From Hexactinellida sp. DTS-2022 (lineage: Eukaryota > Porifera > Hexactinellida): a stretch of DNA of 64,000 bases. The position numbers and the translations under genes were made by a program. The notes beneath the pieces were generated by a model. The model was not told the DNA's origin and did no database searches. It was given only the letters and a program-made list of their open reading frames with translations. This document shows, piece after piece, positions 8,389 through 62,155 of the stretch; the stretch's first letter is position 1; the number at the start of each line of letters is the position of its first letter. The stretch is taken from positions 806,001 to 870,000 of the forward strand of contig JAPNXP010000013.1 in assembly GCA_028753945.1 (NCBI GenBank), in the 5' to 3' direction.

Positions 8389-11300
8389 ATGTCTGTTTTA
8401 ACCAACACAACCAAAATGATTATTCTCACTACTATACTGTGTATCTTGCTAGGATCATTTCATACCGCGAATGGTAATTTACAACTTTCTTTCTATAACG
8501 ACATTTCAAATACTCCACAGGAAACCATCGTATTCGAATCTGGTTCCTTGTTTTACACAGGAGCTCTAGAACACATAGACGAGTTTATTTGCACTGCAGA
8601 CAATCCTAGCACTGAGACTGTGTTGTGGTTTGATGCTAGAGGCAATGAGGTTAGTATTGGTAGTGGCAGTGGCACTGAACTGTATTGGACAGGAACTGAT
8701 GGGAACAAAACACTGCACACCTCTACCAATGGAGGTGACAACTTAATTAATGTGAATAATCAGGGGAATAATTTCACTTGTAGAGTGAGTGATATTGTAG
8801 ATGAGAAATCGTTTGGCATATATTGGGTTAGATCAATTTTGGACTCTAGTGGTAATGTAGATAATGATGTGAGAGGAATGCGAATTTATACGAAGGATAC
8901 TCCTCCTGTGATTTCCGAGTACACACTTCAAAGAGGATTTTTCAATTTGGATCCCAATGCACTATACAAGGTACAGTCATTGAAAGGATTGAACATAGAA
9001 TTCCGACCAGCTCCTATGGAACCTTCTCCAGTGCCTGCTCTGTCTATAATAGATAATGTGAGGTTCCTAGGCACTACGACTTGTCAGTCCATTGGCACAA
9101 GTGATAACGACGTTCTATATACAACTCTCTTTAATGGTCCATATCTTAATTTTGGGGCAGATCAAACAACCGACCAGCCTAGTCTAGATACTTCTGAGTG
9201 CATAGCTAATGGAACCACGTCACAAACGGTATTATCTATAGGAAATCCCAGCCCGGACCTAGAATACACTTGTCCACTCGTGTACAACGGTTTATTTATA
9301 GACTTAGAGAATGTGAATATTGATACGCTATCAAACGTTATATTTAGTCTGACTGGGGGAAATGATTTCAATCGAAGGAGAATGTGGGTAGACTTCAATA
9401 TTGGAAATAGAATCTCCCTGAGGTATGATAGGGAATATGTGTGTAGAGATATGTACGGGACAAGTCTATCTTTCAGAGTAATAGTCACAGCAGACAGCAC
9501 TCTAGAAATATTAGAAAGTGATACAGCGACAATAGGTGTAACAGCTTCAAAGGACTATATTTCAACTTCTATTCCAAACACTCTATACTGCATAACTATG
9601 AACGAGAATGCTATAGTCACGTGGCTAAGTGATACAACCGCGAATCGTAGCGCCTATACCATCCCAGTTCCAGTAACCACTAACACGTCTATTTCTCCAT
9701 ATAAAGTTACTCCTCGTGACGGCAGAAGCGATTTGGTTCTTAACAGCGGGGTAGCATTAGACAGAGAAGGTTACTACACATGCAGTGGTAGTTCAATGGA
9801 AATAAGAGTTGGGATATTCTCACAATCTCCTGTGGCGCCTACTGTTACCACCACACCCTCTGAATCATCACAGAGCATCAGCTTCATAAGTCCTATTAAT
9901 ATTACTTGCAGTGCGATTAATAGCCCCCACCCGCCCCCTCTCTTCTACTGGACAGGACCACGTGCCTCCTCTACACACCTCCTCGACACGACTAACTTCC
10001 AAGTAAGCGATTCCGGTGACTACACCTGTCACGGTACGAATGTAGTTGGTGCCAGTAATGTCACAATCAATATTCTGATAGTAGCTCCTCCTCCCATGCT
10101 AGTGGCATACAACACGAGTATTCATGAGTTCTTCTTCGAACAAGACTCCTTCCAGTTATTCTGTACATTCAGTATTGCTACCAACCTAGCATTAATCCCG
10201 AACATTTCTTGGTACCGAAACTCTACCCGCCTCACTGACGGTATTAATGGTTTCCAAATAACACAAATGTCCACAGGTGATCCCTGGTTGTATATTAATG
10301 TGTTGAGTGTGTCCAGTGCAGTCCCTGCTAACTCTGGACAGTTCTACTGCAGTGCTATTGTAGGGAACAGTGGAGCTAACACGTCATCTCTGTTCAGCAT
10401 TGAAGTTGAGCCTGCATACCTCCCTGATGCTGTTTCAGTACAGTTCGATAGAATAGGATATGTATGTGCTCAGATTAGCTGGAATGGTTCGAACAGAGTT
10501 AGACTAACTCCTGAGACGTATCTAGTATCTTACTGCCAGCTGCCTTCTTGTAGTAGCTATGTAAACTCATCTGTTCTGATTACGTATTCTTACTCTATAA
10601 CCCAGCTTATGAGTCTGACTAATTATTCTGTTTTTGTTACAACTACGAACCGTTTTGGATCCATATATGGGGTCTCGCGAAACTTCACAACTATGCTAGA
10701 AAGGGCTTTCTACTTTTTGGACTGGAGCAAAGGTTTTTTAAAAACTTATTTTGCTAGTGGATCCATATTCAGAGGTGGAAGCGGAGTAGCTTTTGAAATT
10801 AGACAATTCTACTGTGTGCCTGATTATGCTACAGATACAATAACGTGGTATGCTCCTAACGGAGACATTATACCAGAAGGCGTAACGGCCAACTCATTCT
10901 ACCACACAATAGATAATACAACTGGGGAAAGTACATTGACTGTGTGGTCTGCTCTGACAGCTGATAACGATGGTTGGAACTTTACCTGTCGTATTAACAC
11001 AAGTGAGTTCATACATGATCATTACTTTGGGATATATTTTATATTAGACGTTGTCACAAATCGGGGTATCGTTGGAATACGATTGTTCAGTAAGAATGAT
11101 CCTCCTATTGTTAAAGCATTCGCGTTACAGAGAGGGGTATTTGACTTTGACTTCACTAAGTTATATGATATAGAATCCGTGCTGATTGAAACTGCAAGTG
11201 ACTTTACCTGGGTGTTTGAACCTGAATTAATTTCTCCAACAAATCCAAATGCTATTTTCCATGTACTTACAGATATTCAGTTCAATAATGGCAACACCAT

Positions 11301-14300: not shown

Positions 14301-16916
14301 AGGATCTGTTAACTCACCAACTGCTGCTCTATACACTGGTCTCTTGTTGGAAGCAGACACAGGAATGTATACATGTACAGCTTCGAATGTTATTGGTGAG
14401 TCTACCGATACAATAATGATCATAGTTGTACCGCCTTCTCCTCAATTTAACTCTATTCAAACAATAACAGCGTCACCTATATACATCGATGATCCATTTA
14501 CATTGGAATGTCAATTCAGTACTTTTCCCAATATCACTTCGCAGATTGCCATACTATGGTATCTGAACAATACGCAAGTAATCCAGACTAGTACCATTAA
14601 TATAAATACAGCTTACAGTAGCACTGAAGGCATTAGCAGTCTGATGGTTTCCATATCTCAAATTGACCAGACAGGAGACTATCAATGTAGTGCCACTGTT
14701 GGTGGGAGTCAACAAGCTATCTCCCCTATACTACCTTTCAGCTTCGATCTACCTCCAAAACCTAACTTTATAAAAATCATCCTCACTGAGGGTACCATTA
14801 TAGTAGGAGATACGTTTATGCTTGCTTGTGAGTTCATGACACTCCAAAGATTCCTTCATGATCTCTCAATCATCTGGTTCTATAACAACGTTATACTGAG
14901 CACCAGTATTGTTGTTGGTGTGTCAGAATCAATCTCGGGTGCTGACAGTTTGAAAAGTGTCCTATCAGTTAACACGGCTGCTCTCTCTCAATCTGGTGCA
15001 TACCATTGTGTCGCTACTGTTTTGAACTCGTTGCCCAGCATCTCCTCACTCCTAAACGTGACTATTCATTCTGCTCCAACTCCTGTATTCCTTGATTTTG
15101 AATTATCTGCAACTCCTGTTTATATCTCAGAATCTTTTTCTCTCTCCTGTCGATTCTCCATTTCTACCCGCTTCGTGTCATCTCTCACAATTTCCTGGTT
15201 TCACAATGATACAGTTCTTTCCATATTATCCAACAGTGCAATATCTTCTACTATTGATGGGAACACTGCCATTAGTACACTGTCGATCTATAATTCAGGC
15301 TATGAAAGATCTGGTACCTATTCATGTAATGCAGGCGTTCCTGGGTCAGGTTTCGTGTCTTCGAATAAGATTAATGTCATCATCCTTCCTATTCCTCCTC
15401 CAACATTTATTTCTATTGGGTCAAGTACACAGCCTATCTATTTGAATGGATCATTTCAACTCTTCTGTTTTTTCAATGTTCTCACCCGTATCCTACCCTT
15501 CACAACAGTAAAGTGGTATCATAATACAACTGAGATATCTCCTTGTCACTCCAGGTACCTGGTTAACCTACAGCATGATGCTGTTAGTAGCATCAGCAGT
15601 ACCCTAGTAACTGTGTCTTCTGAGGGATGTCAAGTAGGGACATATTATTGTGAGGCAATCTTCGAGCAACTAATTTCCATTTCTGATGAATACATCCTGT
15701 CATTTGAGACTGGTGAGTTGTATTGTTTTTCTTTCATAGTTAAAGTTATTCAATGTTGCAAAATTGTTGCGTCTTGAGGCCGTGTGAAATTTGGAACTGC
15801 TCACTGTCTCAATAATAATTAGTCTGGTGGATTTGTTGCCAATTGGATTGAATTATTTTGGTTAACTTAGGGGTAACTTACTTCACTCCGCTACTTAAAG
15901 AATTGCAATTAGCAATATATATTATCAATATTAATAAAGTTAAAAAATGCAATGGTTTGTGCGGTATCCTACATTATGAATTTATTGAAAAAATAAAATT
16001 CATAATGGACCCATGGTTAACTTTTCACGAAATATACTCCTATATCAGACACGCGATAAAACCTATTCGTTTCTAATCTATATAGTCCAATACGAACAAG
16101 ATATCCTATCCCTCGATGTGGTCTCCATTGATGGTAGCAGCTTGTATCTCCAATGGGAATTGTCACATGCACCTGATGCTGATGAACGCTTCAGTGTAAA
16201 GTTCACAATCCAATCGTCGAATGACACTTTGACTGTAAAATTATTTGATTTGAATTGTGATTTGACATGTGACAGGGACCATAGAGTCTCTTATAAGTTG
16301 ACAGATATAGAAACCAATTCACTTTACATAGCAGAAGTTACTGTTATTAACTCATACGGACAGAGTACCAAAATCTATCAATTTTATCCTCAAGCAATCA
16401 TTTCAGAAGCTATAGGTGGTATCCAATGTCCAGACAATAGTGCTACTATTGCGATCCCATTTATCATGATAATACTTTTGTTATTGTCAGGGTATGTCAT
16501 CATATTAGTTATTTTTGTGATTTGGTACCTACGGTACTATAGAACAATGCAAGCTACACTCAAACATAAAATACTGTCGAAACCTGACAAACAGTATGTA
16601 GAAATGTCTCCAAGGGATACTACAACAGATGGCTATTATAATCTGGGCAATCAATCACGTGATAATCCTCAATTCTACGCAGAGAGCAACATAGCTCCTG
16701 CGGAGGCAGTAGCAGAGCCTACCTATGCACACATTGATGAAGATGGTAAGGTAGTTGAGGAGGCGAAGGTAGATAGAGATTATGAAGTGATGAAATCCGA
16801 TGATTCTGCTATTAAAGTTTCCTACGCGAATGTAAGTAGTTTTGTGTATTTTCATTAATCAGTATATTTAACACTTTCCTCTTCTCTTTCTCTACCTTTC
16901 GTAGGAACTCTGTTAA
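8389..16916 (+). CDS. Ig/FN3 super-repeat type I receptor with multi-tyrosine tail, copy 1
   Basis: Three exons: 8389-15712, 16086-16831 and 16905-16916. Joins are ACT G|GTGAGT to tatag|TC (phase 1) and AAT|GTAAGT to gtag|GAA (phase 0), giving 2,693 residues ending ELC. Residues 1-29 are a signal peptide (Met10 may be the real start). Three super-repeats start near residues 30, 770 and 1495. The first two each contain an Ig-like domain, an unclassified Cys-containing domain opening LQRG(F/V)F, three Ig domains (in repeat 1 near 400-463, 506-545 and 592-653) and an FN3. The third lacks the FN3 and is followed by three more Ig domains (~2130-2440), then FN3, TM (~2562-2590) and the tail. Tail tyrosines: Y2612 (YVEM), Y2625/2626 (YYNL), Y2639, Y2655 (YAHI), Y2674 (YEVM), Y2688 (YANE). 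N-glycosylation sequons are very frequent. Probably a cell-surface recognition receptor; ligand unknown. I do not recognise a named family. Confidence 0.85.
15713..16085 (+). other. receptor copy 1 intron 1
   Basis: Phase-1 intron between the ectodomain exon and the FN3-TM-tail exon (G|GTGAGT ... ttctaatctatatag). The equivalent introns are 28221-28916 in copy 2 and 40440-40903 in copy 3. The three differ greatly in length and sequence although the flanking exons are nearly the same, because of separate insertions. Confidence 0.75.
16086..16831 (+). CDS. receptor copy 1, exon 2: FN3, transmembrane segment, tail
   Basis: Reads from V-QYEQDILSLDVV through a membrane-proximal FN3 (WELSHAPDADERF; YIAEVTVINSYG), an acidic linker, one long hydrophobic helix (IAIPFIMIILLLLSGYVIIL and on), a basic stop-transfer (RYYRTMQATLKHK) and the tail. 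Tail motifs in order are YVEM, YYNL, FYAES, TYAHI, DYEVM and SYAN. YxxM is the known consensus for the PI3-kinase p85 SH2 domain and YxN for Grb2-type SH2 domains; binding here is inferred only. Confidence 0.85.
16905..16916 (+). CDS. receptor copy 1, exon 3 (coding ELC-stop)
   Basis: Acceptor ctctacctttcgtag followed by GAA CTC TGT TAA. The same four codons follow an acceptor at 29735 in copy 2 and 41711 in copy 3 (TAG stop), which supports the join. Reading through the intron instead would add VSSFVYFH, so the apparent VxYxxV motif exists only in unspliced RNA. Confidence 0.65.
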   Translation, partial: ELC

Positions 16917-17548: not shown

Positions 17549-17580
17549 TGCAGAAGTCACATTTCTGGGCCAGAGTGGAC

Positions 17581-28916: not shown

Positions 28917-29662
28917 TCCCATACGAACAAGATATCCTATCCCTCAATGTGGTCTCTATTGATGGTAGCAGTTTGTATCTCCAATGGGAATTGTTACACG
29001 CACCTGATGCTGATGAACGCTTCAGTGTAAAGTTCACAATCCAATTGTCGAATAACACTGTGACTGTAAAATTAGTTGATATGAACTGTGATTTGACATG
29101 TGACAGGGACCATAGAGTCTCTTATAAGTTGACAGATATAGAAACCAATTCTAATTATTTAGCAGAAGTTACTGTTATTAACTTATACGGACAGAGTACC
29201 AAAATCTATCAATTTTATCCTCAAGCAATCATTTCAGAAGCTATAGGTGGTATCCAATGTCCAGACAATAGTGCTACTTTTGCGATCCCATTTATCATGA
29301 TAATACTTTTGTTATTGTCAGGGTATGTCATCATATTAGTTATTTTTGTGATTTGGTACCTACGGTACTATAGAACAATGCAAGCTACACTCAAACATAA
29401 AATACTGTCGAAACCTGACAAACAGTATGTAGAAATGTCTCCAAGGGATACTACAACAGATGGCTATTATAATCTGGGCAATCAATCACGTGATAATCCT
29501 CAATTCTACGCAGGGAGCAACATAGCTCCTGTGGAGGCAGTAGCAGAGCCTACCTATGCACACATTGATGAAGATGGTAAGGTTGTTGAGGAGGCGAAGG
29601 CAGATAGAGATTATGAAGTGATGAAATCCGATGATTCTGCTATTAAAGTTTCCTACGCCAAT
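28917..29662 (+). CDS. receptor copy 2, exon 2: FN3, TM and tail
   Basis: Open throughout and highly similar to copy 1 exon 2, with the same TM helix and the same tail tyrosine motifs (YVEM, YYNL, FYAGS, TYAHI, DYEVM, SYAN). Preservation of this exon although the upstream frameshift cuts it off argues that the frameshift is young or not real. Exon 3 (ELC-stop) follows at 29735-29746. Confidence 0.7.
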
Positions 29663-29746
29663 GTAAGTAGTTTTGTGTATTTTCATTAATTAGTATGTTA
29701 ACACTTTTCTCCTCTCTTTCTCTAGCTTTCGTAGGAACTCTGTTAA

Positions 29747-30544: not shown

Positions 30545-30614
30545 ACCCCCTAAGGTTAGTTATTAACCATTTAGAAATCCTATTGGTTACTCTACAGACT
30601 AATTAGCCTAAGAT

Positions 30615-46058: not shown

Positions 46059-46067
46059 TTAGTAGAG
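46059..46067 (-). CDS. terminal exon of FN3 receptor (LY-stop)
   Basis: ctctattctatcctttag|CTC TAC TAA. Joined in phase 0 it ends the tail with VDYANLY, which fits the ITIM pattern (V/I/L/S)xYxx(L/V/I). The position is analogous to the ELC exon of the Ig receptors, but the residues differ. Confidence 0.5.
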   Translation of the reverse strand, partial: LY

Positions 46068-49000: not shown

Positions 49001-52000
49001 ACTTCTAGGAATGTTGATAACTGTAAGGACATCTGATTCTTTGAATGGTGGGACATCCGGAGGAGGTACTAAAACAAACTCAAATAAAACCACAGTGTAA
49101 TATCTTTCATGATACATGTATATTCAATATTAAATTATTCTTGATTTTGGTGGTGGTTTATTGATACTTTGATAGTGCCTCCAATGGAACATGCTGTCGA
49201 CACAGGCTACAATTTTGGATTTTTTTCGCCATATCATGATTCATGAACGTCACATGGTGTTTAGAATAAAAAAAGTTGTTACGGGACAAAGGAACGATTG
49301 TTGAATTTGAAGTTTATTTCTATTTTGAACCATCTTGAGTTTAATGCCATTCATTCATTATTGTATTGATAATAAATTATACTATTAGTTATTTATTTTA
49401 GCAATGTTATCCACGGTGAGTGAGTTAAGTCAACAAATCCTTATATTATATTATTTTATTTAATCCATTGTATAGTAATACTACATTTAAATAGAAGCCA
49501 GCTGGAATTTATAAGTTAAACTTAAATCAATATATTTATCGCAAGTCAAATAATAGAGTAGGATTTAACAAGTTAAATCAATATTCATTAGATTTGTAAC
49601 AATGGAATTAGATTTCACAGTTTTACTGAAATTGAAGTGTGAGTAAACAAAGAAATTTCAACCCCAATTTATGGCAAAAATTAAACACATTATTGAAAGT
49701 TTTCTTCTGTTACTCCTAATCCATTTCTCATCACCACTTGTTAAATTTTATTAGAAAACATTGATTTAAATTTAGCTAAATCATGAAATGTATCTGTTAA
49801 TATACTTATGCGGTTTTGTTTATATATCTGAGTCTGATTCTGTAGTAAATCAAATTTTATAAAGGATTTATTTGTATTGAGTAGGATGGGCGGTTAACCG
49901 GTTAACTGTGACGAGAAATCGAATTGTAACCGCAGGCTAAGAACGGTTAACCAACCCATCCTTGTCGTGTTCAAACAAGAATGTTAATTATCATATACTA
50001 AAGCAAATTACTCTATTAAATAGGAAGCACTTTCGTACAAATCTGACTTGCTAATTACATGAACGCCATTGTATTTTAAACATAAATTGATAACGTTTCT
50101 TGAAATTCACTTTATACAAAACGAATTTCTGAATTTTAACTTACCACTCGGATTTGTAGTGGCATTAATTTCAGCTGATCTAGGACCTTCTCCATTTTCA
50201 TTTCTTACATTGACCGAAATTAAATATACCTTGTTCGCTACTAAGTTTATTACTGACACTTGGTATGGACCAATATTAGCTGGTATAAATGGTTGTATGG
50301 TTTCTGTGATAGTCCCTAGTTCTTTGTAGAAGATACTGAAGCTCAATAACATCCCATTTAATGTGAAAAAATCAAGTGCAAAATTGAATTGGAGCGATGT
50401 ATCAGAAGTTGCTTCTGCTCTTAAGCTGAGGGGAGGACCAGTAGGAACTAAACAAATAAAGTAAAATCAATAAGCTCTTCACTAGATTTGCCTTAAGAAT
50501 CTTGATATCTACTATACTACCTGTTGGAACTAGACTTGGAGACGTTACAGTAACGAAAGGAGTCTGTCCAGTGCCAGTTCGAATGGAAATATTCACCACA
50601 TACACATAGTTGGGTAAAAGATCTCCTAAATTAATAGTGCGTCCTGAATTTATTGCAATAGTTATAGTTAATATTTCTGTAATTGCTATTGCATCCATCT
50701 GTCTCTTCCTTCTTCTCGAGGGTAATATATTGCCTATAAACAGAAATCCCTGATAGAATACCTCATAAGATTCAGGTTCACCGTTCAATAAGGATACGGG
50801 AATGTCGGGTATGGTCAAAGAAAGACTTCTAAGAATGGTAGTAACTATTGGGACATCTGATTCTTTGAATGGTGGGACATCCGGAGGAGGTACTAAAACA
50901 AACTCAAATAAAAACTACAATGTAATATCTTTCATAATATATTCAATATTACATTAATCTTGATTTTAACCTATACCAAATTGTTTTTCGGCATATTAAA
51001 AAAATATTCATCAAGGAATATTCATTTATAAAATATTTCAAGATGGAATCTGTCCTAAGAACTATGAACACAGATGAGTTACTTAATATTAACCTGATAC
51101 AGTGTTAACATCAATGGTATTGCTAGAAGCCCCCAATCCTGCTCCATTTCCTGCCCTGATACTAACAGTGTAGTTCGTTCCTTCCTCTACGTCTGAGAAG
51201 CAAATTGATATATCCAATATTTCTGCTGGATACTGTGTGTCCGATATATTGATAGTTCTGTTGAGCGGTCCATCTATTGCTCTTGATAGATTCACAAAAT
51301 ATTGTACAATCAATCCATTCTGATCTATCGGCTCTGGCACTCCAAATATTACACAAACTGTAGTTGGATTAGGAGAAATAGCACTGATAAGTAACGGAGC
51401 TATAGATACTAAAGTAAATGAAAAAGCTAATAAATAACAAATAAACACCAAAATACAGTCAGGTCTGCTTATTGTGAACAATTTTTCGTCTGCATAATAT
51501 GAAGAACTTTTGTTATGAACAAGCCCTATGGTCCCAATTTAACAACTTACATAGGGTTTGTAATAAGTTGAGTACGCTTTTTATGAAGTCTCTCTATTGA
51601 CTGTAATAATTTTATATTTACAAATGATTGATTTAAGCCGGGAAACGAGCCCCACGGTCCCTGCATAAGAAACCCACAAACCAAAGGTGTAACAAGATTT
51701 TCATAAACAATAGCTATAAAGTTTTAAATATTTTTTGAATAATCTCAAAAAAATATAAACACATTTCCTACATGCTGTTCAACTGAACTATTGGTTTATA
51801 CATTGTTGAGTAAAGTAATGTTAACAATATATTTAAAAACGATTTGAATTTTTTTATTTCCCTAGGTCCCTCACGTCCTAATAGTGCTTACAATGGTTAA
51901 GTTGGAGAGCACTTATTCGATTATAACATAACCTATAAATATTAACTATACCTTCTTGTAGAGTCTCTACTACTATCGCTGGGCTGTTGGTCCCAATAGC

Positions 52001-55000
52001 TACTGTAGTAGCAACTATTGTTATTGTATAGTTCACATACTGTTGTAGGCCGGTTAACACCTCCGTCCTGTTAGTAACATATGGATACTCTCTGTCTGTT
52101 ATATTAACAAATGTTATGTTAGGAGTGACAGATTGGAATACACTAGCTGTGTAGAAAATAGTGTATAGTATGATTAACCCATTTTGATCGATCTGTGTGG
52201 GAGGCACATAAGTTACTTCTATACTAGTAGCTCCAGCAGTGATTGAAGTTATTGTAGGAGGGCTGGATGGAGCTATTGGGAGAGAAATAATTAGTAATAA
52301 CACAACAAAATGATAAATATTATTAATACAGTGGACTGGGCCGTAGAAAAACAAACAAAGTTTATCAAAAAATATTCAATTTTAATTTATTCAGGAGAAT
52401 CTACCGAAACCAATTTGTCCCAATAGCTGAAGTTGATTGTTCTACATTATTATGTACATACCTGATTGATCAGTTGTTTGCTGTACAATACTACTGAATA
52501 CAGAAGGCCCAGCTATTGTATAAGCTCTCACGATTATATTATACTCTACAAACTCCTGAAGAGAAGATACATTGAATGTAACATTGAGAGTCAGAGGATA
52601 GCCATTTGGTATCTCTGTGGTGTTCCTCAGTTCAGGTGCTATGCTAAACCTGAATGTAGTAATGCTAATCTCGTAAGCAACAATAGGTCCATTCTGTTCT
52701 ATGGAAGCAGGAGGAGATATGAGCAACTGTATGTATGTTGTGGAGACAGATTGTACTGCAACTGATGGACTCTCAGATGGAACTATATCAATAAATTAAT
52801 AATTAGAATGTTAAGTTGGCCCAAAATAGAAAAATTAATCTAATTACCATACCTGCAAAATCTGTGATCTGTATAATCCCATCTGTGAATGGACTCGTCC
52901 CTATCTGGTTGATAGCACTCACTCTAACAGTGTAGTTATTGTATTCCTGTAATCCAGTTAGATTAACAGAGAGAGTCTCTAATGTAGCGGGATAAATAGG
53001 ATTTGACACACTGACAATCACAAATTGAATTGTAGTATCAAACGTCTGTCCAATGTAAGCAACGTTGTAGCTGATAACCAATCCATTCTGATTAATAGCA
53101 AGAGGAGGTATGAAGGTAACTCCAATAGAAGTAGGGCTCAATGTTTGTGTGCTTACACTCAATGGTGGACTGCTAGGTGCTATAGGGAATAAGAATACAT
53201 ATTATACATTATGTGGCTATATTTGATAACCTTTCTTAAACGTAAACTGGGTCCAAACTAAGTTTTTATCAAAACTTATTCCCAAACATACTTTTTTAAT
53301 AGATTCTTACTCAAACTAAGCATGAACTTAATTGGGATATGTGTACTACATATTGTATTTCGGATATATTGGAATGAAAGATTCAAAACACAATTTCATT
53401 AGTAGAAAGTTAACATATAATACGAATTATACCAGGGACGGTGACTTTTTTAATCAGGCAATTATTACTATTCGGGTTCACTGGCATACACTTGCACAAT
53501 CTTGGCAAATTAAAACTTGCCTGACCGATATTTCACCTTATCTTTCTTCATATTAACCAAAGTATGTTGCATATTATAGTGAGAAATTCAGTTAATTAAT
53601 TAATTGATTGAGTCTAGTTAGAACAAGATTTTAGCTTCCTTATTTTTCAAGATAAATTATCAAAAACTAAGCAAAAAATATGTAATACGTACTTCCAAAC
53701 TAAACAAACACTAAGTTAAAACTAATTTTGGATTTAGTTTGTACTTTGTTACTGTTTCATTATATATTTGATACTACAAGGGTAATAAAAGTCACCTCGC
53801 ATTAGTATTAACTGTATATAAATTTTAAAAGTTAAACTAATTCATTTTTACTAATTTTTTGAGCTATAATAAGGGAATAACCAATGTTAATTATGTCAGA
53901 TGGGATACAATGATACAAACCTGTTGCTATAGTTGTTTGCTGTACAATGCCACTGAATACAGAAGGCCCAGCTATTGAATAAGCTCTCACGCTTATATTA
54001 TACTCTACAAACTCCTGAAGAGAAGATACATTGAATGTAACATTGAGAGTCAGAGGATAGCCATTTGGTATCTCTGTGGTGTTCCTCAGTTCAGGTGCTA
54101 TGCTAAACCTGAATGTAGTAATGCTAATCTCGTAAGCAATAATAGGTCCATTCTGTTCTATGGAAGCAGGAGGAGATATGAGCAACTGTATGTATGTTGT
54201 GGAGACAGATTGTACTGCAACTAATGGGCTCTCAGATGGAACTAAACAAAGTATGATTAGTTATTAACTAAATTTGCTGCAAACAGAGTTCTACTTTACT
54301 ATCCAACCTGCAATATCAGTTATTTGTATTACTCCAGTAGTGAATTGACTCGGTCCTTCTACAGTACTAGCACTCACTCTAATAGTGTAGTTATTGTATT
54401 CCTCCAATCCGATTATTATAACAGATACAGATGCTGTAGCTGGGTAGATGGGATTTGATACATTAACAGTTTGAAACTGGGAGACAGTTTCGAAAGTCTG
54501 CCCAGTATAGCTGACATTATACACAAGATTGGGTCCATTCTGATTGATACTAAGAGGAGGTATGAATGTAACCATTATAGAAGTAGGGCTTAGTGCTACT
54601 GTAATGACATTCTGTGGCGGGCTGCTTGGTGCTACAGGAAATAAATATTTGTTTAAATACACTAAAAATCACAAGCATACAATATACTCTCTAAGTGAGT
54701 TCGATATTTGTACTTATTAGTCTACATAAGCAATGTTTTATATTTACTTGTCTGTGCAGTTCAAGATTTTACTCACTAACTGGAGTAGCTGTAGCCATGG
54801 TCATACAAAAGAAATAATTGTCTAGCGGACTCAACAATTTCTGTCATTTAAATTAGGTGAATGAGTGAATTAACAAATTTATTAATACTCCATTCAAATT
54901 TATTGTTTAACCTAATGTAATAAAATAACTAATTAAACGAGCAATACGTAGTCGCGTCTTTAGTATGAAAGAGTTTAATAACAAACCTGCAATATTTGTA

Positions 55001-58000
55001 ATCTGTATAATCCCATCTGTGAATGGACTCGCCCCTATCTGGTTAATAGCACTCACTCTAACAGTGTAGTTATTGTATTCCTGTAATCCAGTTAGATTAA
55101 CAGAGAGCGTCTCTACTGTAGCGGGATAAATAGCATTTGACACATTAATAATCACAAATTGAGTTGTAGTATCAGACATCTGTCCAATGTAAGTAACGTT
55201 GTAGCTGATAACCAGTCCATTCTGATTAATAGCAAGAGGAGGTATGAATGTAACTCCAATATAAGTAGGGCTCAATGCTTGTGTGCTTACACTCAATGGT
55301 GGACTGCTAGGTGCTATATGGAATAAGAATACGTATTATACATTATGTGGCTATATTTGATAACCTTTCTTAAACGTAAACTGGGTCCAAACTAAGTTTT
55401 TATCAAAACTTATTCCCAAACATACTTTTTTAATAGATTCTTACTCAAACTAAGCATGAACTTAATTGGGATATGTGTACTACATATTGTATTTCGGATA
55501 TATTGGAATGAAAGATTCAAAACACAATTTCATTAGTAGAAAGTTAACATATAATACGAATTATACCAGGGACGGTGACTTTTTTAATCAGGCAATTATT
55601 ACTATTCGGGTTCACTGGCATACACTTGCACAATCTTGGCAAATTAAAACTTGCCTGACCGATATTTCACCCTATCTTTCTTCCTATTAACGAAAGTATG
55701 TTGCATATTATAGTGAGAAATTCAGTTAATTAATTAATTGATTGAGTCTAGTTAGAACAAGATTTTAGCTTCCTTATTTTTCAAGATAAATTATCAAAAA
55801 CTAAGCAAAAAATATGTAATACGTACTTCCAAACTAAACAAACACTAAGTTAAAACTAATTTTGGATTTAGTTTGTACTTTGTTACTGTTTCATTATATA
55901 TTTGATACTACAAGGGTAATAAAAGTCACCTCGCATTAGTATTAACTGTATATAAATTTTTAAAGTTAAACTAATTCATATTTGCTAATTTTTTGAGCTA
56001 TAATAAGGGAATAACCAATGTTAATTATGTCAGATGGGATACAATGATACAAACCTGTTGCTATAGTTGTTTGCTGTACAATACTACTGAATACAGAAGG
56101 CCCAGCTATTGAATAAGCTCTCACGCTTATGGTATACTCTACAAACTCCTGAAGAGAAGATACATTGAATGTAACATTGAGAGTCAGAGGATAGCCATTT
56201 GGTATCTCTGTGGTGTTCCTCAGTTCAGGTGCTATGCTAAACCTGAATGTAGTAATGCTAATCTCGTAAGCAACAATAGGTCCATTCTGTTCTATGGAAG
56301 CAGGAGGAGATATGAGCAACTGTATGTATGTTGTGGAGACAGATTGTACTGCAACTGATGGACTCTCAGATGGAACTAAATCAATAAATTAATAATTAGA
56401 ATGTTAAGTTGGCCCAAAATAGAAAAATTAATCTAATTACCATACCTGCAATATCTGTGATCCGTATAATCCCATCTGAGAATGGACTCGCCCCTATCTG
56501 GTTAATAGCACTCACTCTAACAGTGTAGTTATTGTATTCCTGTAATCCAGTCAGATTAACAGAGAGCGTCTCTACTGTAGCGGGATAAATAGCATTTGAC
56601 ACATTAACAATCACAAATTGAATTGTAGTATCAAACGTCTGTCCAATGTACGTAACATAGTAGCTGTTAACCAATCCATTTTGATTAATAGCAACAGGAG
56701 GTCTGAAGGTAACTCCAATATAACTAGGGCTCAATGCTTGTGTTACTACATTCTGTGGAGGACTGCTAGGTGCTAGAATTAACAAATAGAGTTAAACAGC
56801 ACATTATAAATCAATATTTATCTAAATTGATTCAAACTTACCAGTCTGCAAAGTAGACTCAAACACTGGATCGCTGAGTGGACTTATCCCTGCTCCATTC
56901 CTGACGCTTAAAATTACAGAATAATTAACAAATTCTTCAAGGCCCGTGATAATGTAAAATTGGATCGAAGTATCAGTTGAGTATTTAATTGCGACAACAA
57001 TAACTCTTTCTGTAGTGTCTAGATTTATTCCTTGTACTTGAAACTCTACTTGTAATAGTAACCCATTGTGTTCATCTATATCAGGTACTCTCCAGGTAGT
57101 ATTTAAAGCCGTTGAGTTGACAACAGTGACAGTTATGTTAATTGGAGGTGAGGCAGGGGCTGTTAAAATACAATAGTATTAAAAATATTACGAATAATTT
57201 GCAAAAGGAGATTATGTATACATTTGGTAACATCCAAAAAGAAAAAACTGGCACACCTGTCAAATGAGGTGAACCTCTAATTTAGTCCATAAACTGAACA
57301 AATACGTGTATGTGACTTCGTCATAAACAATAATTAGCGATAGTTGGGATATATGATGGGGATATTCTGTAATTTAAACTTACGTGCGGTTTGAGTAGAT
57401 GCAACCAAAGGCTGAGTAAAAGGACCTTGTCCGACATTTGTGCTTGCTGCTATTCTAAAGCTATAAGTTGTATCTTCCTCTAATTCTGTAATAGTAACAC
57501 TGAACTGATCTGGATGTACTGTGATAGTACGAATAGCAGAATCTCTGTCAACTCCAAAGTATACAATCGTGTAATTAGTTATAATTCCATTCTGATCGAC
57601 AGCAAGAGGAGCCACAAATAAAAGAGTTATATTTATTCCACTGAGAGCTGTAAAGTTCTGAGGAGCAGCACTCGGAGCTAAAAAGTACAGTATTTAATAA
57701 TATAGTTAAATCTATCTGCATAACATTGTACTAACCAGCTTCATCTGTTAATGCAGTTAAACCAACACTTGCTATTCCAGTCCCAATTCCATTAACTGCT
57801 GCAACTGATATATGGTAAGTATTGAATTCTTCTAAGCCAACCAGGGTCCTGCATATCATGCCTGTTAGAGGATACAACTGTGGTGTAACAGGTGCAGTAT
57901 CATTCTGTTCTGCTGAGTCAAATAAACTCCCAGAGTACGTTATAGCGAATGAGGTAATTATTCCGTTTTGTGAGGCATCTTGAGGAGGAAAGAAACATAC

Positions 58001-61000
58001 ACGAATAGCTGTGGCATTTATAGTAAGAACTGTGACAGTCTGAGGAGCTTGGCAAGGAACTAAATGAGTACATTAGGTAAATGAGAACATTTATATATTG
58101 GAAACATTTCTATATTAATTGAGTTCATTTATATATTTTGTGAACATTTAATTATGCAAACCTGATTCTAATGTCCTGAACACGTCTGTAATAGCAGCCC
58201 CTACTCCAGCTCCATTAACAGCTGATACTGCTACCGTATAGTTGTTAAACTCTTCTAATCCATAAATACACACACTACTTGATGCAGTCAGTGGATAGGG
58301 AGCAACCACTGATACAGACACAATAACCTGAGTCGTATTGAATAACTCTCCTTGATAGCTCACAGTGTAAGACTGAATAACTCCATTCTGTGTGACATTA
58401 GCAGGAGGATAGATAGTTATACAAAAGGATGTAGATGTTGTGTTTGAGACTGCTAGCTGAGTAGGAGCTTCGGATACTAAATAGGAATTGTTAGTCAAAT
58501 ATTGAATATATTCCATAAATATGTTGGAATTTAAGTAGGCGGTGGTTTAATGGTGATATTTCTATTATGACAAATTCTAAAACTTTGCACTATGTCCAGA
58601 CTCCAGTTAATATACGTTTTAAAATGTTGGAGAAAGGTAAGTCTCCCCAAAATAAGTCGGCAAAAATACTTGACCACGGTATTTCAATTGTTGATGAGTG
58701 GAGTTACTTATAATTACTGTAACTACCTGCTTGATCAGTCAGTGCTACCACTCCTGCACTGGAGTCACTGGATACTATTGAATTGATAGCTTGTACAGTG
58801 ACTGTATAGTTGTTAAACTCTTGCAGTCCATTCAGAGTAGCATTAATACAAGCTATTGCTGGATACGATAACGATACGTTAACTGTGTTAGACTGAGTAA
58901 ATGTATCAAATGGATCTCCAGTGTATGAAACAGTGTATCCAAGTATCAATCCGTTCTGGTTTATGCTAGCAGGTGGGCATATTGTAACTTGGATAGATTG
59001 TGGACCAAGAGTCCGTAATACAATATTAGTTGGAGCAGCAGCTGGAGCTATATAGAGACATAGTGCTTAATATTGGCAATATAATTAGGAGATTGCAGGA
59101 TATGTTTACATAATTTTCTGATTGAACTAGCAAGAATGGATAAAAATAGACTAGAAAACGAGGAACATGGCAAATACTGCATACCTGTTTCAAGAGTTAA
59201 TGCAGTGATATCTGTACTAGCTGGTCCTGATCCAGCACTATTGATTAACCGTATTGAGATAGTGTAGATGTTGTTTTCTTCTAAGTTAGGTAGATCAGCA
59301 CACACAATCCTCGTTAATGGATACTCAGTAGCTGTCACATTTACACTAGCAACCACTTGTGTTGTTTGGAATGGAGATCCAGTATATATGACATCGAATG
59401 AAGTGATTATACCATTCTGACTGCTACCAGTAGGAGGATCGAAACATACAGTGATTGAGGTAGCAGTTATACTTGTAGCTGATACGGTCTGAGGAGCAGT
59501 GATGGGAGCTAAATGGAGTAAATTATTCAGTAGAGTTCATAGCTGTAGGATCCGTGTGGGAAGTAGGGATAAAGCTCCACCTCAGTTTATCTTGGTAGGG
59601 CTAAGTCCCACCACTTTGACAAGTTTCCATTTTGATTGTCAAAGTAAATATTCATACATAATGATCGTACACATAGAGAAAATACATAATTTATAGATTC
59701 ATGCTTTATTCTTCTTCCATCTCTACCTTATACTATTTGCATTTACCCTTCAGCTCATTGGCCTAGCCTTGATTAATAAGAATGCAACAATCGCTAAATC
59801 TTTAGTCCGGCTACTAAAAAGTAACTTGCTAAGGAATTTATTAATTTTAATTCAAATCGCATATCTTTTTTGCAAATTTTGATTTTATATATTTAGTTTA
59901 ATGTTTCAAAGTGTTAGCCCTACTAGTAAAATCTCGTTCCTACGCGCCTGGTCGAGTTTATATATAGTTGTGTATTAACAGTGTCAAGATATCTCTTCAT
60001 ACTAAACGAGTTGAATTTACCAAATTAATGAATTCTAATTATATCAGATAACATTTTTGGCAAATCTAGGGGTGTTAGTTTAAATCTATCATTACAAACC
60101 TGATTGTAAAGTCCTGAACACATCTGAGATAGCAGCCCCTACTCCAGCCCCATTAACAGCTGACACTGCTATCGTATAGTTGTTAAACTCTTCTAATCCA
60201 TAAATACACACACGACTTGATGCAGTCAGTGGATAGGTAGCAACCACTGATACAGACACAATAACCTGAGTCGTATTGAATAACTCCCCTTGATAGCTCA
60301 CAGTGTAAGACTGAATAACTCCATTCTGTGTGACATTAGCAGGAGGATAGATAGTTATACAGAAGGATGTAGATGTTGTGTTTGAGACTGCTAGCTGAGT
60401 GGGAGCTTCAGATACTAAAAGGAATTGGTTTTGATATTCAAATTCCAGCAAAAAGTATACATAGCATTTCGAATGCTGTTCATTGTTTGGAGTGTATTAA
60501 TCCATTAGATACTTATATGAATATCTGTTTGATATAATTGTTTGCTGTTTGAGTTACATCATTTGATTGACTCCTTCTGGAAGAATTTTCCGTTTATTCA
60601 CATTTTTGAGGGATTAATACCAACCGAATAGGAATTGAAAACTTTTTCATGTTGCTATGGTGTTGTAGTATTAAATATGCATGATGATAAGTAAAGAAGT
60701 GCCACAATGAAAATTATATCCTCACTATGTCAAATAGGTATAATAAGTTGCTTATTTAGTTCAAATATTGTGCTCAAATTATTGGATAACTTTTAGGACT
60801 GTTAAGTAATTATTGATTATCATAATCTCCATTATATACAATATGAATGCCTTCACGGAATGTTCATAAACAAAAATATAAAATTCTGAATAATACTCTC
60901 CATTAATAAAACAATGTTACTCACCTGTTTCAAGAGTTAATGCAGTGATATCTGTACTAGCTGGTCCTGATCCAGCACTATTGATTAACCGTATTGAGAT

Positions 61001-62155
61001 AGTGTAGATGTTGTTTTCTTCTAAGTTAGGTAGATCAGCACACACAATCCTCGTTAATGGATACTCAGTAGCTGTCACATTTACACTAGCAACCACTTGT
61101 GATGTTTGGAATGGAGATCCAGTATATAAGACATCGAATGAAGTGATTATTCCATTCTGACTGCTGCCAGTAGGAGGATCGAAACATACAGTGATTGTAG
61201 TAGCAGTTATACTAGCAGCAGCTACGGTCTGAGGAGCAGTGATGGGAGCTAAAGAGAGTAAATTATTCAGTAGAGTTCATAGCTGAGGATCCGTGTGGGA
61301 AGTGAGGGCTAAAGCTCCACCTCAGTTTATTTTGGTAGGGCTAAGTCCCACCACTTTGACAAGTTTCCATTTTGATTGTCAAAGTAAATATTCATACATA
61401 ATGATCGTACACATAGAGAAAATACATAATTTAAAGATTCATGCTTTATTCTTATTCCATCTCTACCTTATACTATTTGCATTTACCCTTCAGCTCATTG
61501 ACCTAGCCTTGATTAATAAGAATGCAACAATCGCTAAATCTTTAGTCCAGCTACTAAAAAAAAACTTGCTAAGGAATTTATTAATTTTAATTCAAATCGT
61601 ATATCTTTTTTGCAAATTTTGATTTTATATATTTAGTTTAATGTTTCAAAGTGTTAGCCCTACTAGTAAAATCTCGTTCCTACGCGCCTGGTCGAGTTTA
61701 TATATAGTTGTGTATTAACAGTGTCAAGATATCTCTTCATACTAAACGAGTTGAATTTTACCAAATTAATGAATTCTAATTATATCAGATAACATTTTTG
61801 GCAAATCTAGGGGTGTTAGTTTAAATCTATCATTACAAACCTGATGCTAATGTTCTGAACACATCTGAGATAGCAGCCCCTACTCCAGCTCCATTAACAG
61901 CTGACACTGCTATCGCATAGTTGTTAAACTCTTCTAATCCATAAATACACACACTACTTGATGCAGTCAGTGGATAGGGAGCAACCACTGATACAGACAC
62001 AATAACCTGAGTCGTATTGAATAACTCTCCTTGATAGCTCACAGTGTAAGACTGAATAGTTCCATTCTGTGTGACATTAACAGGAGGATAGATAGTTATA
62101 CAGAAGGATGTAGAAGTTATGTTTGAAACTGCTAGCTGAGTGGGAGCTCCAGGTA
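46059..62155 (-). CDS. FN3-array type I receptor sharing the Ig-receptor tail (5' end outside window)
   Basis: At least 28 exons on the minus strand totalling about 7,990 coding bases. In order: 22 FN3-type exons (62155 down to 48321), each a whole domain with phase 1 at both ends and a length divisible by three; a Thr/Pro-rich stalk (47473-47356); an unclassified membrane-proximal domain (47175-46860); a short linker exon (46774-46717); a TM exon (46656-46548); a tail exon (46412-46127); and a terminal exon coding LY-stop (46067-46059). All joins keep the frame. No signal peptide is in the window, so the gene starts beyond it or in an unrecognised exon. Tail motifs YMEM, YYNL, FYAEI, IYAHI, DYEVM and DYANL correspond one by one to those of the Ig receptors. 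There is no kinase or phosphatase domain. Likely a surface receptor using SH2 adaptors; ligand unknown. Confidence 0.8.
46127..46412 (-). CDS. cytoplasmic tail exon of FN3 receptor
   Basis: gtattttag|A TCG AAG to GCG AAT|GTGAGT. Motifs in order: YMEM, YYNL, FYAEI, IYAHI, DYEVM and DYAN. Co-linear with the Ig-receptor tail, sharing phrases such as PQFYAE, AHIDEDGKV and DYEVMKS. This is the tail of a different ectodomain type on the opposite strand. Confidence 0.85.
46548..46656 (-). CDS. transmembrane exon of FN3 receptor
   Basis: atatag|AA CCG AGT to AGA AG|GTAAGT. EPSSPIG then a helix (IVVALLLIIAILGGVIVALI and on) closed by WFMRRR, a clear single-pass TM with basic stop-transfer. Confidence 0.85.
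46717..46774 (-). CDS. short linker exon
   Basis: tttctag|ATG ACA AGT to GAA G|GTAATT; codes MTSPTFTLTSIPFQVTIPE. Phase 0 in, phase 1 out, which fits the neighbouring exons. Confidence 0.6.
46860..47175 (-). CDS. membrane-proximal domain exon, unclassified
   Basis: 105 codons: IIYIITDYNNPPKFQDETF ... FDNEINTNIRIQAALNSTFF ... FDNLPLTRGSTLYSYYYVQF. The LxRGSxYxYxxxxF phrase recalls the last strand of membrane-proximal domains in receptor tyrosine phosphatases, but similarity is too slight for a call. The acceptor (attatag|G) is weak; a nearer one upstream would create a stop. Confidence 0.6.
47356..47473 (-). CDS. Thr/Pro-rich stalk exon
   Basis: tatttag|TT CCA ACC to ATA GC|GTATGT, phase 1 in and phase 2 out. 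VPTTTTVLGTTPVPTSELLP ... an extended, probably O-glycosylated stalk between the FN3 array and the membrane-proximal domain. The join to the next exon depends on the phase-2 donor. Confidence 0.6.
47524..47651. mobile_element. TA-flanked MITE in intron
   Basis: TACAGTAGATACCGGATATAAG ... CTTATATCCGGCATTCACTGTA, inverted ends with TA borders; pogo/Tc1-like size and termini. Confidence 0.75.
47744..48181 (+). mobile_element. non-autonomous Helitron-like element
   Basis: Starts TCTATACTATTAAAAC and ends GCGCGCTAG, i.e. 5'-TC and 3'-CTAG. A hairpin (AGGcCGC-GGA-GCGaCCT, 48146-48162) lies 15 bases before the CTAG. It sits exactly between A and T (gcaaa|TC...CTAG|ttag) with no target duplication. 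The duplicated segment around 50004 (gcaaattactctatt) shows the empty A-T site. All four Helitron hallmarks are met. No Rep/helicase coding. Confidence 0.8.
48321..48623 (-). CDS. FN3 exon 22
   Basis: APTGPPLSLRAEATSDTS ... SIFYKELGTITETIQPF ... NKVYLISVSVRNENGEG, donor AGT C|GTAAGT. A Helitron-like insertion lies 140 bp downstream. Confidence 0.8.
48697..49068 (-). CDS. FN3-like exon 21, long, with RRRKR site
   Basis: Second copy of exon 19: PPPDVPPFKESDVLTVI ... TRRRKRQMDAIA (RRRKR coded at 48892-48878) ... LLPNYVYVVNISIHTGTGQ. The basic site is kept in both copies although nearby residues differ. Confidence 0.75.
49069..50144. other. long intron between exons 20 and 21
   Basis: AT-rich. 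Contains an inverted repeat at 49883-49961; otherwise nothing recognised. Confidence 0.45.
49883..49961. mobile_element. small inverted-repeat element
   Basis: GGATGGGCGGTTAACCG ... CGGTTAACCAACCCATCC. About 80 bp, absent from the matching intron flank of the other copy near 47690. Confidence 0.6.
50145..50447 (-). CDS. FN3 exon 20
   Basis: VPTGPPLSLRAEATSDTS ... SFSIFYKELGTITETIQ ... NKVYLISVNVRNENGEG. Duplicate of exon 22. Confidence 0.8.
50521..50892 (-). CDS. FN3-like exon 19, long, with RRRKR site
   Basis: 124 codons against about 105 for other FN3 exons. VPPPDVPPFKESDV ... SYEVFYQGFLF, then an inserted loop SRRRKRQMDA (RRRKR coded at 50716-50702), then LLPNYVYVVNISIRTGTGQ. Matches the R-x-K/R-R furin consensus. 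Duplicated as exon 21. Confidence 0.75.
51094..51399 (-). CDS. FN3 exon 18
   Basis: APLLISAISPNPTTVCVIF ... PEPIDQNGLIVQYFVNL ... VEEGTNYTVSIRAGNGAGLG. The upstream intron holds the MITE 51454-51605. Confidence 0.8.
51454..51605. mobile_element. TA-flanked MITE, best copy of its family
   Basis: TACAGTCAGGTCTGCTTATT ... CTCTCTATTGACTGTA with TA borders. Degraded relatives are at 18142-18295 and 30251-30398 in the receptor units. Confidence 0.75.
51606..51951. other. intron between FN3 exons 17 and 18
   Basis: AT-rich; no further feature seen. Confidence 0.4.
51952..52272 (-). CDS. FN3 exon 17
   Basis: APSSPPTITSITAGATS ... VPPTQIDQNGLIILYTIFY ... LQQYVNYTITIVATTVAIG, donor GAA G|GTATAG. Confidence 0.8.
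52462..52782 (-). CDS. FN3 exon 16 (type Q)
   Basis: Near copy of exons 11 and 14 (ASIEQNGPIVAYEIS; LQEFVEYNIIVRAYTIAG). Donor CAG G|GTATGT-like (plus-strand ataccTG). Confidence 0.8.
52853..53179 (-). CDS. FN3 exon 15 (type P)
   Basis: LSVSTQTLSPTSIGVTF ... LAINQNGLVISYNVAY ... LQEYNNYTVRVSAINQIGTS. Duplicate of exon 12, offset 2,134 bp. Confidence 0.8.
53921..54241 (-). CDS. FN3 exon 14 (type Q)
   Basis: Near copy of exon 11. The following intron (53180-53920) is 741 bp, the same length as 55314-56054 and nearly the same in sequence. Confidence 0.8.
54308..54631 (-). CDS. FN3 exon 13 (type P, diverged)
   Basis: APSSPPQNVITVALSPTS ... IPPLSINQNGPNLVYNVSY ... LEEYNNYTIRVSASTVEG. Phase 1-1. 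Confidence 0.8.
54987..55313 (-). CDS. FN3 exon 12 (type P)
   Basis: APSSPPLSVSTQALSPTY ... IPPLAINQNGLVISYNVTY ... LQEYNNYTVRVSAINQIGAS. Acceptor catatag. Duplicate of exon 15. Confidence 0.8.
56055..56375 (-). CDS. FN3 exon 11 (type Q)
   Basis: VPSESPSVAVQSVSTTY ... SPPASIEQNGPIVAYEI ... LQEFVEYTISVRAYSIAG. Almost the same as exons 14 and 16. Confidence 0.8.
56446..56772 (-). CDS. FN3 exon 10 (type P)
   Basis: APSSPPQNVVTQALSPSY ... RPPVAINQNGLVNSYYV ... LQEYNNYTVRVSAINQIGAS. Related to exons 12 and 15. Confidence 0.8.
56842..57159 (-). CDS. FN3 exon 9
   Basis: ttttaacag|CC CCT GCC to ACT G|GTAAGT. APASPPINITVTVVNSTAL ... WRVPDIDEHNGLLLQVEF ... LEEFVNYSVILSVRNGAG. Diverged from its neighbours. 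Confidence 0.75.
57384..57677 (-). CDS. FN3 exon 8
   Basis: APSAAPQNFTALSG ... APLAVDQNGIITNYTIVY ... LEEDTTYSFRIAASTNVGQG, donor GCA C|GTAAGT. Confidence 0.8.
57736..58059 (-). CDS. FN3 exon 7
   Basis: tttag|TT CCT TGC to GCT G|GTTAGT. VPCQAPQTVTVLTINATA ... FFPPQDASQNGIITSFAI ... LEEFNTYHISVAAVNGIG. The frame is open through the whole exon. Confidence 0.75.
58162..58476 (-). CDS. FN3 exon 6 (type X)
   Basis: VSEAPTQLAVSNTTSTSF ... LEEFNNYTVAVSAVNGAG, third X-type domain. Phase 1-1. Confidence 0.8.
58727..59047 (-). CDS. FN3 exon 5
   Basis: atatag|CT CCA to GCA G|GTAGTT. APAAAPTNIVLRTLGPQ ... ICPPASINQNGLILGYTVSY ... LQEFNNYTVTVQAINS. Confidence 0.8.
59185..59508 (-). CDS. FN3 exon 4 (type Y)
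   Basis: Near-identical to exon 2. The ~600-bp intron to exon 3 is also near-identical to 61249-61840, so exons 1-2 and 3-4 are recent duplicates. Confidence 0.8.
60100..60414 (-). CDS. FN3 exon 3 (type X)
   Basis: tttag|TA TCT GAA to TCA G|GTTTGT. VSEAPTQLAVSN ... LEEFNNYTIAVSAVNGAG. Part of the duplicated X-Y pair. Confidence 0.8.
60415..60924. other. intron between FN3 exons 2 and 3
   Basis: AT-rich, no feature seen. It marks the break between the two duplicate blocks. Confidence 0.4.
60925..61248 (-). CDS. FN3 exon 2 (type Y)
   Basis: tttag|CT CCC ATC to ACA G|GTGAGT, 108 codons. APITAPQTVAA ... VCFDPPTGSSQNGIITSF ... EENNIYTISIRLINSAG. Near copy of exon 4 (59508-59185). Confidence 0.8.
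61841..62155 (-). CDS. FN3 exon 1 in window (type X)
   Basis: ag|TA CCT GGA to TCA G|GTTTGT, phase 1-1, 105 codons. PGAPTQLAVSN ... TYPP-like core ... LEEFNNYAIAVSAVNGAG. Near copy of exons 3 (60414) and 6 (58476). Confidence 0.8.

Follow-up and report, generated by a model that had tools for sequence, protein, structure and literature searches.

Two receptor types with one tyrosine-rich tail in a glass sponge gene cluster, and their proposed pairing with receptor phosphatases

Paired receptors, whose extracellular parts match while their cytoplasmic parts act in opposition, have been described in immune families of vertebrates (PMC5112662). As outlined for CEACAM1/CEACAM3, Siglec-11/-16, SIRP and KIR, such receptors have near-identical ectodomains, differing cytoplasmic parts and linked genes, and their ectodomains are homogenised by gene conversion, which in the CEACAM and Siglec pairs touches the ligand-binding region (PMC5112662, PMC5701461). 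Here we describe a comparable arrangement in the glass sponge Hexactinellida sp. DTS-2022 (assembly GCA_028753945.1), centred on a window of 64,000 nucleotides, by which we mean the whole stretch analysed (contig JAPNXP010000013.1, hereafter C5, positions 806001-870000; the genome comprises 112.4 Mb in 18 contigs). The window holds three receptor genes with immunoglobulin (Ig) super-repeats on the + strand, T1, T2 and T3, and one receptor gene with an array of fibronectin type III (FN3) domains on the - strand, F. All four end in one tyrosine-rich tail, and both kinds of ectodomain recur on receptor tyrosine phosphatases at C5:~417-470 kb, encoded by two Ig genes and one FN3-array gene. We propose, with a probability of about 0.6, that the window is the non-catalytic half of a paired-receptor system in which each of two ectodomains is combined with each of two cytoplasmic halves, with a common ligand and opposed signalling. 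Gene structures and splice joins were read, and signalling roles predicted, from the DNA sequence of one haplotype.

The likeness to the vertebrate pairs is one of architecture, and no sequence relation is claimed. The two sponge classes are about 90% identical in nucleotides over 6.3 kb, full-length pairs are 85-92% identical in amino acids within lineages, and the types lie on one contig, 340-430 kb apart. They differ from the vertebrate pairs in that the shared ectodomain, of ~2,100 residues, is contained in one exon, that one arm is a receptor-type phosphatase itself and not a protein with an immunoreceptor tyrosine-based inhibitory motif (ITIM), and that the other arm carries YxxM and YxN motifs and no immunoreceptor tyrosine-based activation motif (ITAM). 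According to the CEACAM authors, such conversion needs opposite orientation; here the Ig tail genes are on the + strand and the Ig phosphatase genes on the - strand, but F and the FN3 phosphatase gene are both on the - strand.

Receptor-type protein tyrosine phosphatases (RPTPs) offer a second comparison. The sponge Ig phosphatase combines an Ig and FN3 ectodomain with tandem protein tyrosine phosphatase (PTP) domains, as LAR/sigma-type RPTPs do, and the sponge FN3 phosphatase has the FN3 array and two PTP domains of FN3-array RPTPs, whereas the window genes lack a phosphatase and end in a docking tail. To our knowledge, the sponge Ig super-repeat is unlike LAR. Sponge aggregation factors, also a sponge recognition system, are secreted proteoglycan core proteins with Calx-beta repeats; the comparison with them made here goes by Pfam scans of the window frames. 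A term look-up in two glass sponge genome papers found neither phosphatase nor allorecognition in the main text, and in the open-licence literature searched on glass sponge receptor phosphatases and allogeneic fusion, invertebrate paired receptors, sponge allorecognition, choanoflagellate and sponge receptor phosphatases and chimeric receptor phosphatases we found no description of this system.

The shared tail

A preliminary description of this DNA held that the three + strand Ig receptors and the - strand FN3 receptor share a co-linear tail, and that the tails are far more alike than the ectodomains. Both statements are borne out. The tail, of ~96 residues, has the motif order YV/MEM, YYNL, FYAE, YAHI, DYEVM, YAN and the phrases AHIDEDGKV and DYEVMKS in all four genes, with FYAG in place of FYAE in T2 as the exception; the tail of F is 67-70% identical to the + strand tails, while the ectodomains are Ig super-repeats on one side and an FN3 array on the other. 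A search of the whole genome with the F tail, set as a test beforehand, found it in exactly four places, all in the window (the + strand tails at E 1e-30 to 1e-36; all 4 of 4 candidates scored), with no fifth copy; in this genome the tail was found at this locus alone.

Other assemblies contain at least 18 relatives of the + type tail exon among the best 7,999 candidates scored, and the tail frame of F, used as query on these assemblies, returned + type relatives alone (2 matches of 8 candidates). We tabulated conservation over 23 rows, namely the four tails of this genome, the 18 relatives and P0036, a gene model from the glass sponge Oopsacas minuta (source name Titin isoform X20) in which the same kind of Ig ectodomain is joined to the same kind of tail; the closest named protein relative of the window genes comes from this species. 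The tyrosines are retained in nearly all rows at YxEM (23/23), YYNL (23/23 and 22/23), YAHI (23/23), YEVM (20/21) and YAN (20/21), and in 17/23 at FYAE. The SH2 domains of p85 and of Grb2-type proteins require, respectively, the methionine at +3 of YxxM and the asparagine at +2 of YxN. That methionine is present in 22/23 and 21/22 rows at the two YxxM sites (43/45 cells), where the variable positions, +1 of the first and +2 of the second, are kept in 13/23 and 15/22; the asparagine is present in 21/23 and 19/20 rows at the two YxN sites (40/43 cells). This conservation is what recognition by p85 and Grb2-type SH2 domains would demand.

CD28/ICOS/CD19-type co-stimulatory tails and the docking segments of IRS proteins and RTKs are likewise non-catalytic and use YxxM for p85 and YxN for Grb2-type adaptors. 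The likeness of the sponge tail to them is at the level of motifs alone, and its sequence has no match in Pfam (T1 exon as query) or in the PDB (F tail as query). The Hydractinia Alr and Botryllus fester/FcoR receptors are clustered members of the Ig superfamily with tyrosine motifs in their tails, described as canonical ITIM or hemITAM (PMC12065747); the tails of T1-T3, in contrast, contain no ITIM of the form (S/I/V/L)xYxx(I/V/L), and F contains one ITIM-like hexapeptide, which spans its last splice joint. Two Yxx(I/L) motifs at the ITAM spacing of 6-12 residues were not seen by eye, 26 residues lying between YYNL and YAHI in T1.

Two further candidates were set aside. The tail does not lead into a kinase, as the spliced frame stops 2-3 codons past YAN. 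A match to the DNA pattern of DYEVMKS on contig C3 (L015 ~4328-4344) was taken as chance, being outside the listed frames of at least 80 aa and absent from the protein search; the reversed control of this pattern matched twice.

Ig ectodomains matched within lineages

T1-T3 share one layout, in which a ~7.3-kb ectodomain exon is followed by an exon for the last FN3 domain, the transmembrane segment and the tail, and by a tiny last exon. The Pfam scan resolves the ectodomain into three super-repeats, each of Ig and FN3 domains and an uncharacterised part, with starts ~725-740 residues apart, and then further Ig domains and one FN3 domain. In T1 the ectodomain exon (8389..15712, +; open frame 8383-15777, with Pfam Ig and fn3 matches) has a signal-peptide-like start, runs three times through Ig, an uncharacterised part of ~230 residues, Ig and FN3 before its final Ig domains, and closes on the donor ACTG/GTGAG, which leaves the spliced frame open. 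The second exon (16086..16831, +) contains the tail at 16544-16831 and a membrane-proximal FN3 domain that matches Pfam fn3 at E 3e-4, below the curated cut-off; the terminal mini-exon (GAACTCTGTTAA, ELC and stop; 16905..16916, +) is predicted from its acceptor signal and its conservation in T2 and T3. The corresponding + strand exons are at 20883..28220, 28917..29662 (tail 29375-29662) and 29735-29746 in T2, and at 33113..40439 (an open frame), 40904..41631 (tail 41362-41631) and 41711-41722 in T3. Both T1 (2,693 aa) and T3 (2,688 aa) splice into a single open frame with GT-AG introns, while the ectodomain exon of T2 has a one-base frameshift near 27262, which may be real or an assembly error. 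For the uncharacterised part a PDB sequence search gave no useful match, and an AlphaFold2 model of the first 450 residues of the super-repeat (9 rows, all taken from the window) reached a mean pLDDT of just 36.

The Ig ectodomain has eight matches genome-wide (19/22 candidates scored), comprising five genes (T2 being split into two matches), a weak match of 29% on C18 and a fragment at C5:875667-875891. Three of these five large copies are tail-type and two are phosphatase-type, and the ectodomain frame is open in all but the frameshifted T2. The fragment (L019 5649-6140, -), outside the window, is probably a gene remnant. The nearer Ig phosphatase gene is a 2,788-residue open frame lying directly downstream of the FN3 phosphatase gene on the same strand. 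Over its first ~2,100 residues (~6.3 kb) it is 90.3, 89.9 and 90.5% identical in nucleotides to T1, T2 and T3; it then diverges and ends in a transmembrane segment and a PTP domain (HCSAGVGRTG; PF00102 2e-83). The first PTP domain of the Ig phosphatase is nearest to PTPRS, PTPRA and LAR among solved structures. In the second Ig phosphatase gene, at C5:~417-426 kb, the first ~450 residues are lacking and the ectodomain shows 85% protein identity to T1-T3. PF00102 has 106 matches genome-wide and none within the window, whose four genes are thus without a PTP domain.

To place these copies, we aligned residues 60-2100 of 22 ectodomains, five from this genome and 17 of 19 matches from other assemblies, the hemicentins P0041 and P0042 being excluded, and inferred a tree under LG+G4 with no mixture, from which the lineages themselves were defined. 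Rows without a PTP domain and with a T1-T3-like end were called tail-type, the type of P0035 (shortened) and P0039 (different end) being unsure; P0034, P0036, P0039 and P0040 are long-branch rows of whose joining the tree program warned. The tree groups ectodomains by lineage, with full support for four lineages, and not by cytoplasmic type, which changes at least six times. A clade of all phosphatase-type ectodomains is rejected (AU test, p 2.2e-6 for 8 rows and 2.8e-12 for the 6 rows of the four near lineages). Within lineages, phosphatase- and tail-type ectodomains are 85-86% identical in protein in this genome, 88-91% in the 2097362/30243 group, 87-89% in the 594846/812689/1118058 group and 92% in the 422144/447452 group, the last falling to 85% with the chimeric P0038 and uniting two contigs by similarity alone; between the same lineages, ectodomains of the same type are 70-85% identical. 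Among more distant assemblies, P0039 and P0040 have ectodomains that are 86% identical, one with a PTP domain and the other with a transmembrane segment and a different tail.

A scan of overlapping windows of 100 residues (step 50) over five quartets that share rows locates the end of this pattern. In four of the five, lineage decides the grouping in 41 of 44 scored windows, and type in the final three, which start at residue 2100. In the fifth (this genome against 2097362), 36 of 45 windows follow lineage, eight follow type (five at the end, three within residues 200-400) and one follows neither. The switch falls at residue ~2050-2100 in all five. Past residue ~2100, identity is 22-49% between types, against 51-92% for the same type across lineages. 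In the DNA of this genome, synonymous divergence (dS) is 0.17-0.21 between types, close to the 0.135-0.18 within types; per window, between-type dS ranges over 0.10-0.42 and peaks at residues 260-460 (~0.4, compared with 0.16-0.20 among T1-T3) and at the boundary (0.25-0.42). Such patchiness is the pattern left by gene conversion. Matching sites are clustered in 6/6 pairs by sum of squares and in 4/6 by longest run (p<0.05, uncorrected; variation of rate among sites can add to this). As judged from these alignments, the Ig ectodomains have been homogenised within lineages by conversion or recombination, a statement that holds for the Ig pair alone, and the lineage grouping with its switch at ~2100 is the signature predicted for paired receptors kept matched by conversion.

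Neutral concerted evolution could leave a similar record. Highly similar exons on one contig may exchange by chance, and the two types may serve the syncytium in unrelated ways, in adhesion or in development. The genes do lie on one contig in this genome, as they apparently do in groups 2097362 and 1118058, and the homogenisation is patchy and ends where the similarity ends. However, four lineages have kept both types with their ectodomains homogenised, and a second ectodomain (FN3) has been brought to the same tail, which is more than chance requires; the ectodomain frame is open in four of the five Ig genes. We regard neutral exchange as unlikely, though it deserves serious attention.

F is a chimera joined inside an intron

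On its 5' side F has an array of 22 FN3-type open frames (48286..62216, -; exon ends approximate), 20 of which match Pfam fn3, one of the 20 below the curated cut-off; a 5' signal-peptide exon was looked for and not found. The membrane-proximal frame (46842..47201, -), with no Pfam family at E<=0.01, is 91% identical to a copy in the FN3 receptor phosphatase gene at C5:447760-448083, and the transmembrane exon (46548..46656, -) is homologous to that of the same phosphatase gene. This gene has two PTP domains; 6 of 10 scanned frames at its locus match PF00102, one of the six just below the cut-off, and 2 of the 10 were extracellular frames. Elsewhere on the contig, the FN3 receptors of L014 (C5:198000-206999) contain a domain distantly related (32%) to the membrane-proximal one and have short tails that do not resemble the tyrosine tail.

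The FN3 phosphatase gene and F are about 88-93% identical in their main collinear blocks, which stop at 46499. In a blastn search with F from 46700 towards 44000, query positions 1-202 match the FN3 phosphatase gene (90.6%) and 202-608 the transmembrane-tail exon of T3 (76%), with matches to T1 and T2 from position 225 (79-80%). The breakpoint is at ~46499, inside the intron after the transmembrane exon. This intron (46413..46547, -) is thus itself chimeric: from 46547 to ~46499 it is intron of the phosphatase gene, and from ~46499 to 46413 it is decayed but recognisable transmembrane-coding sequence of a tail-type Ig gene, whose score against any of the three + strand genes was reached by 0/2000 mononucleotide shuffles under two scoring schemes, the second with a narrow margin (216 vs 202 for T3). 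The new acceptor, TTTTAG/A, seems to derive from a Tyr-Arg codon pair of the former reading frame. Beyond it lie the captured tail exon (46127..46412, -), recognised by tail homology and the spliced frame, and a terminal mini-exon (CTCTACTAA, LY and stop; 46059..46067, -) predicted from an acceptor signal. The 3' end of F is an open frame after splicing, with GT-AG introns. Hence the tail, which in T1-T3 shares a single exon with the last FN3 domain and the transmembrane segment, is a separate exon in F, and in all four genes its last codons are split off into a tiny exon (YAN/ELC and stop in T1-T3, YAN/LY and stop in F).

Read from the sequence, F is an FN3 phosphatase-type gene that captured an Ig-type tail. 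A 9-base gap and the tail sequence (73 and 74% identity) point to a donor resembling P0014/P0021, a subtype in a related assembly, the branch joining them being weakly supported; no Ig gene of this subtype was found in this genome. A second kind of chimera is seen in another sponge assembly, where the open frame P0038 runs from an FN3 domain of the FN3-array kind into a tail-type Ig ectodomain.

At the phosphatase locus, 35/36 open frames of at least 90 aa have a match in the F array region, and all 23 FN3 and membrane-proximal frames of F have a counterpart there, although the F frames were chosen as open ones, so that openness itself is no test. Stops occur inside the matched stretch in 2/23 F frames and 6/35 phosphatase-locus frames; we do not read them as damage, since the frames extend past exon ends that were not fixed individually. 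Over seven frame comparisons, some including intron-flank codons, nonsynonymous divergence (dN) between F and the FN3 phosphatase gene is 0.046-0.147 and dS 0.072-0.199.

These values bear on an explanation in which F and T2 are decaying by-products and function is confined to T1, T3 and the phosphatases. The T2 frameshift speaks for it, as does a dN near dS in some exons of F; F has nevertheless retained its splice signals, an open 3' end, every tail motif and, with the caveat on openness just given, a counterpart for all 23 frames. We think such decay rather improbable. F also shows that fusions of this kind happen, and P0038 joins an FN3-array-kind unit to an Ig ectodomain, so tail-type genes might have been made anew in each lineage by fusing the local phosphatase-type ectodomain to the tail, with no conversion. 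This scenario is harder to accept still, and we judge it quite unlikely: five quartets, which share rows and are not independent, have the same switch point (~2050-2100), as is expected of one old junction with conversion rather than of independent fusions. That F is a phosphatase gene and a tail gene mis-joined in assembly, where similar repeated exons do assemble poorly, is very improbable because neither half copies any extant locus seen in this genome, identity being just 67-70% between the tail and those of T1-T3 and about 88-93% between the FN3 part and the phosphatase gene, and because the decayed transmembrane coding in the intron makes the joint look old.

A proposed pairing of docking and phosphatase receptors

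Building on the shared ectodomains, the different cytoplasmic halves, the chimeric intron, the lineage-wise Ig homogenisation and the motif conservation documented above, we propose the following mechanism. The Ig and FN3 ectodomains, each present on a phosphatase receptor and on a tail-type receptor (T1-T3 and F, respectively), would bind the same ligand in both forms. The tail would be a phosphotyrosine docking site with two YxxM and two YxN motifs. When a tail-type receptor is engaged, cytoplasmic tyrosine kinases would phosphorylate the tail, and PI3K p85 and Grb2-type SH2 proteins would be recruited; engagement of the matching phosphatase receptor would remove phosphate from the tail, among other substrates, and the ratio of the receptors would set the output. 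F would have arisen from a copy of an FN3 receptor phosphatase gene whose phosphatase half was replaced by the transmembrane-tail end of a tail-type Ig gene, the junction lying in the intron after the transmembrane exon. We infer the common ligand, the phosphorylation of the tail, the opposed outputs and the co-expression of the partners; a shared ligand is suggested by the matched ectodomains, by likeness to the CEACAM and Siglec pairs. The genome contains a p85-like gene on C11, with one iSH2 match just at the cut-off and SH2 matches on both sides, and on C17 there are SH2-SH2 pairs followed by PTP matches, in two arrangements.

Several observations weigh against this pairing. The tail as a whole is no better conserved than its neighbours (mean column conservation 0.74, compared with 0.75 for the transmembrane segment and 0.78 for the FN3 part), the ectodomain dN/dS is moderate at 0.35-0.50, and there is the dN near dS in some exons of F. 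The lineage signal is modest when this genome is set against its nearest relative: the two types within this genome are 85-86% identical, compared with 84% to the phosphatase of the relative and 82-85% when both type and lineage differ, and the interior windows grouping by type (3 of 45) or neither way (1) come from this comparison. Within lineages, the two phosphatase genes of this genome pair up, as do T1 with T3 and P0030 with P0032, and so homogenisation is not recent everywhere. Finally, the outputs would not be opposed if, as may be, the tail recruits SHP-type phosphatases.

The preliminary description had seen one signalling output linked to different recognition modules, as in immune or allorecognition clusters. 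One tail does stand on two unrelated ectodomains, but these are two types only, not many, and both also occur on receptor phosphatases, so that the system looks like two ectodomains by two cytoplasmic halves; two ectodomains with two opposed outputs fit better than one tail with many recognition modules. By analogy, an immune or allorecognition role would be compatible with the pairing. Tentatively, and with the odds somewhat against it, we suggest that glass sponges may run an independently evolved paired-receptor recognition, with the phosphatase as restraining arm and the PI3K/Grb2 docking tail as driving arm, the arms being matched by conversion and the FN3 class recruited through tail capture. 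Such a system would be a candidate for a switch that senses self and non-self, or microbes, in a syncytial animal. If the pairing is real, a very early branch of the animals evolved paired-receptor logic on its own, with one partner incorporating the phosphatase, and hexactinellids have named candidate genes for recognition. F in addition offers a clean example of a receptor phosphatase gene turning into a docking receptor through recombination inside an intron.

Other genes are found in and around the cluster. T1-T3 sit in tandem units (the T1 and T2 units are 92.6% identical across 9.7 kb), each with a copy of an ASCC1-like gene (KH and AKAP7_NLS domains) upstream of the receptor, at 6127-7537, 18668-20029 and 30612-32009 (+). 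A gene for an NHL-repeat protein, possibly a TRIM-NHL relative, marks the edge of the cluster at 4349-5623 (+), and a coiled-coil-like frame at 44165-44560 (-) may be another gene of the NHL/TRIM-NHL type. Adjoining the window is the gene of a FERM-domain tyrosine phosphatase, presumably cytosolic, at C5:804285-805001 (L021 6186-9050, +), and a caspase-domain gene lies near the receptor cluster at C5:~873.6-874.7 kb (L019 3558-4715, -).

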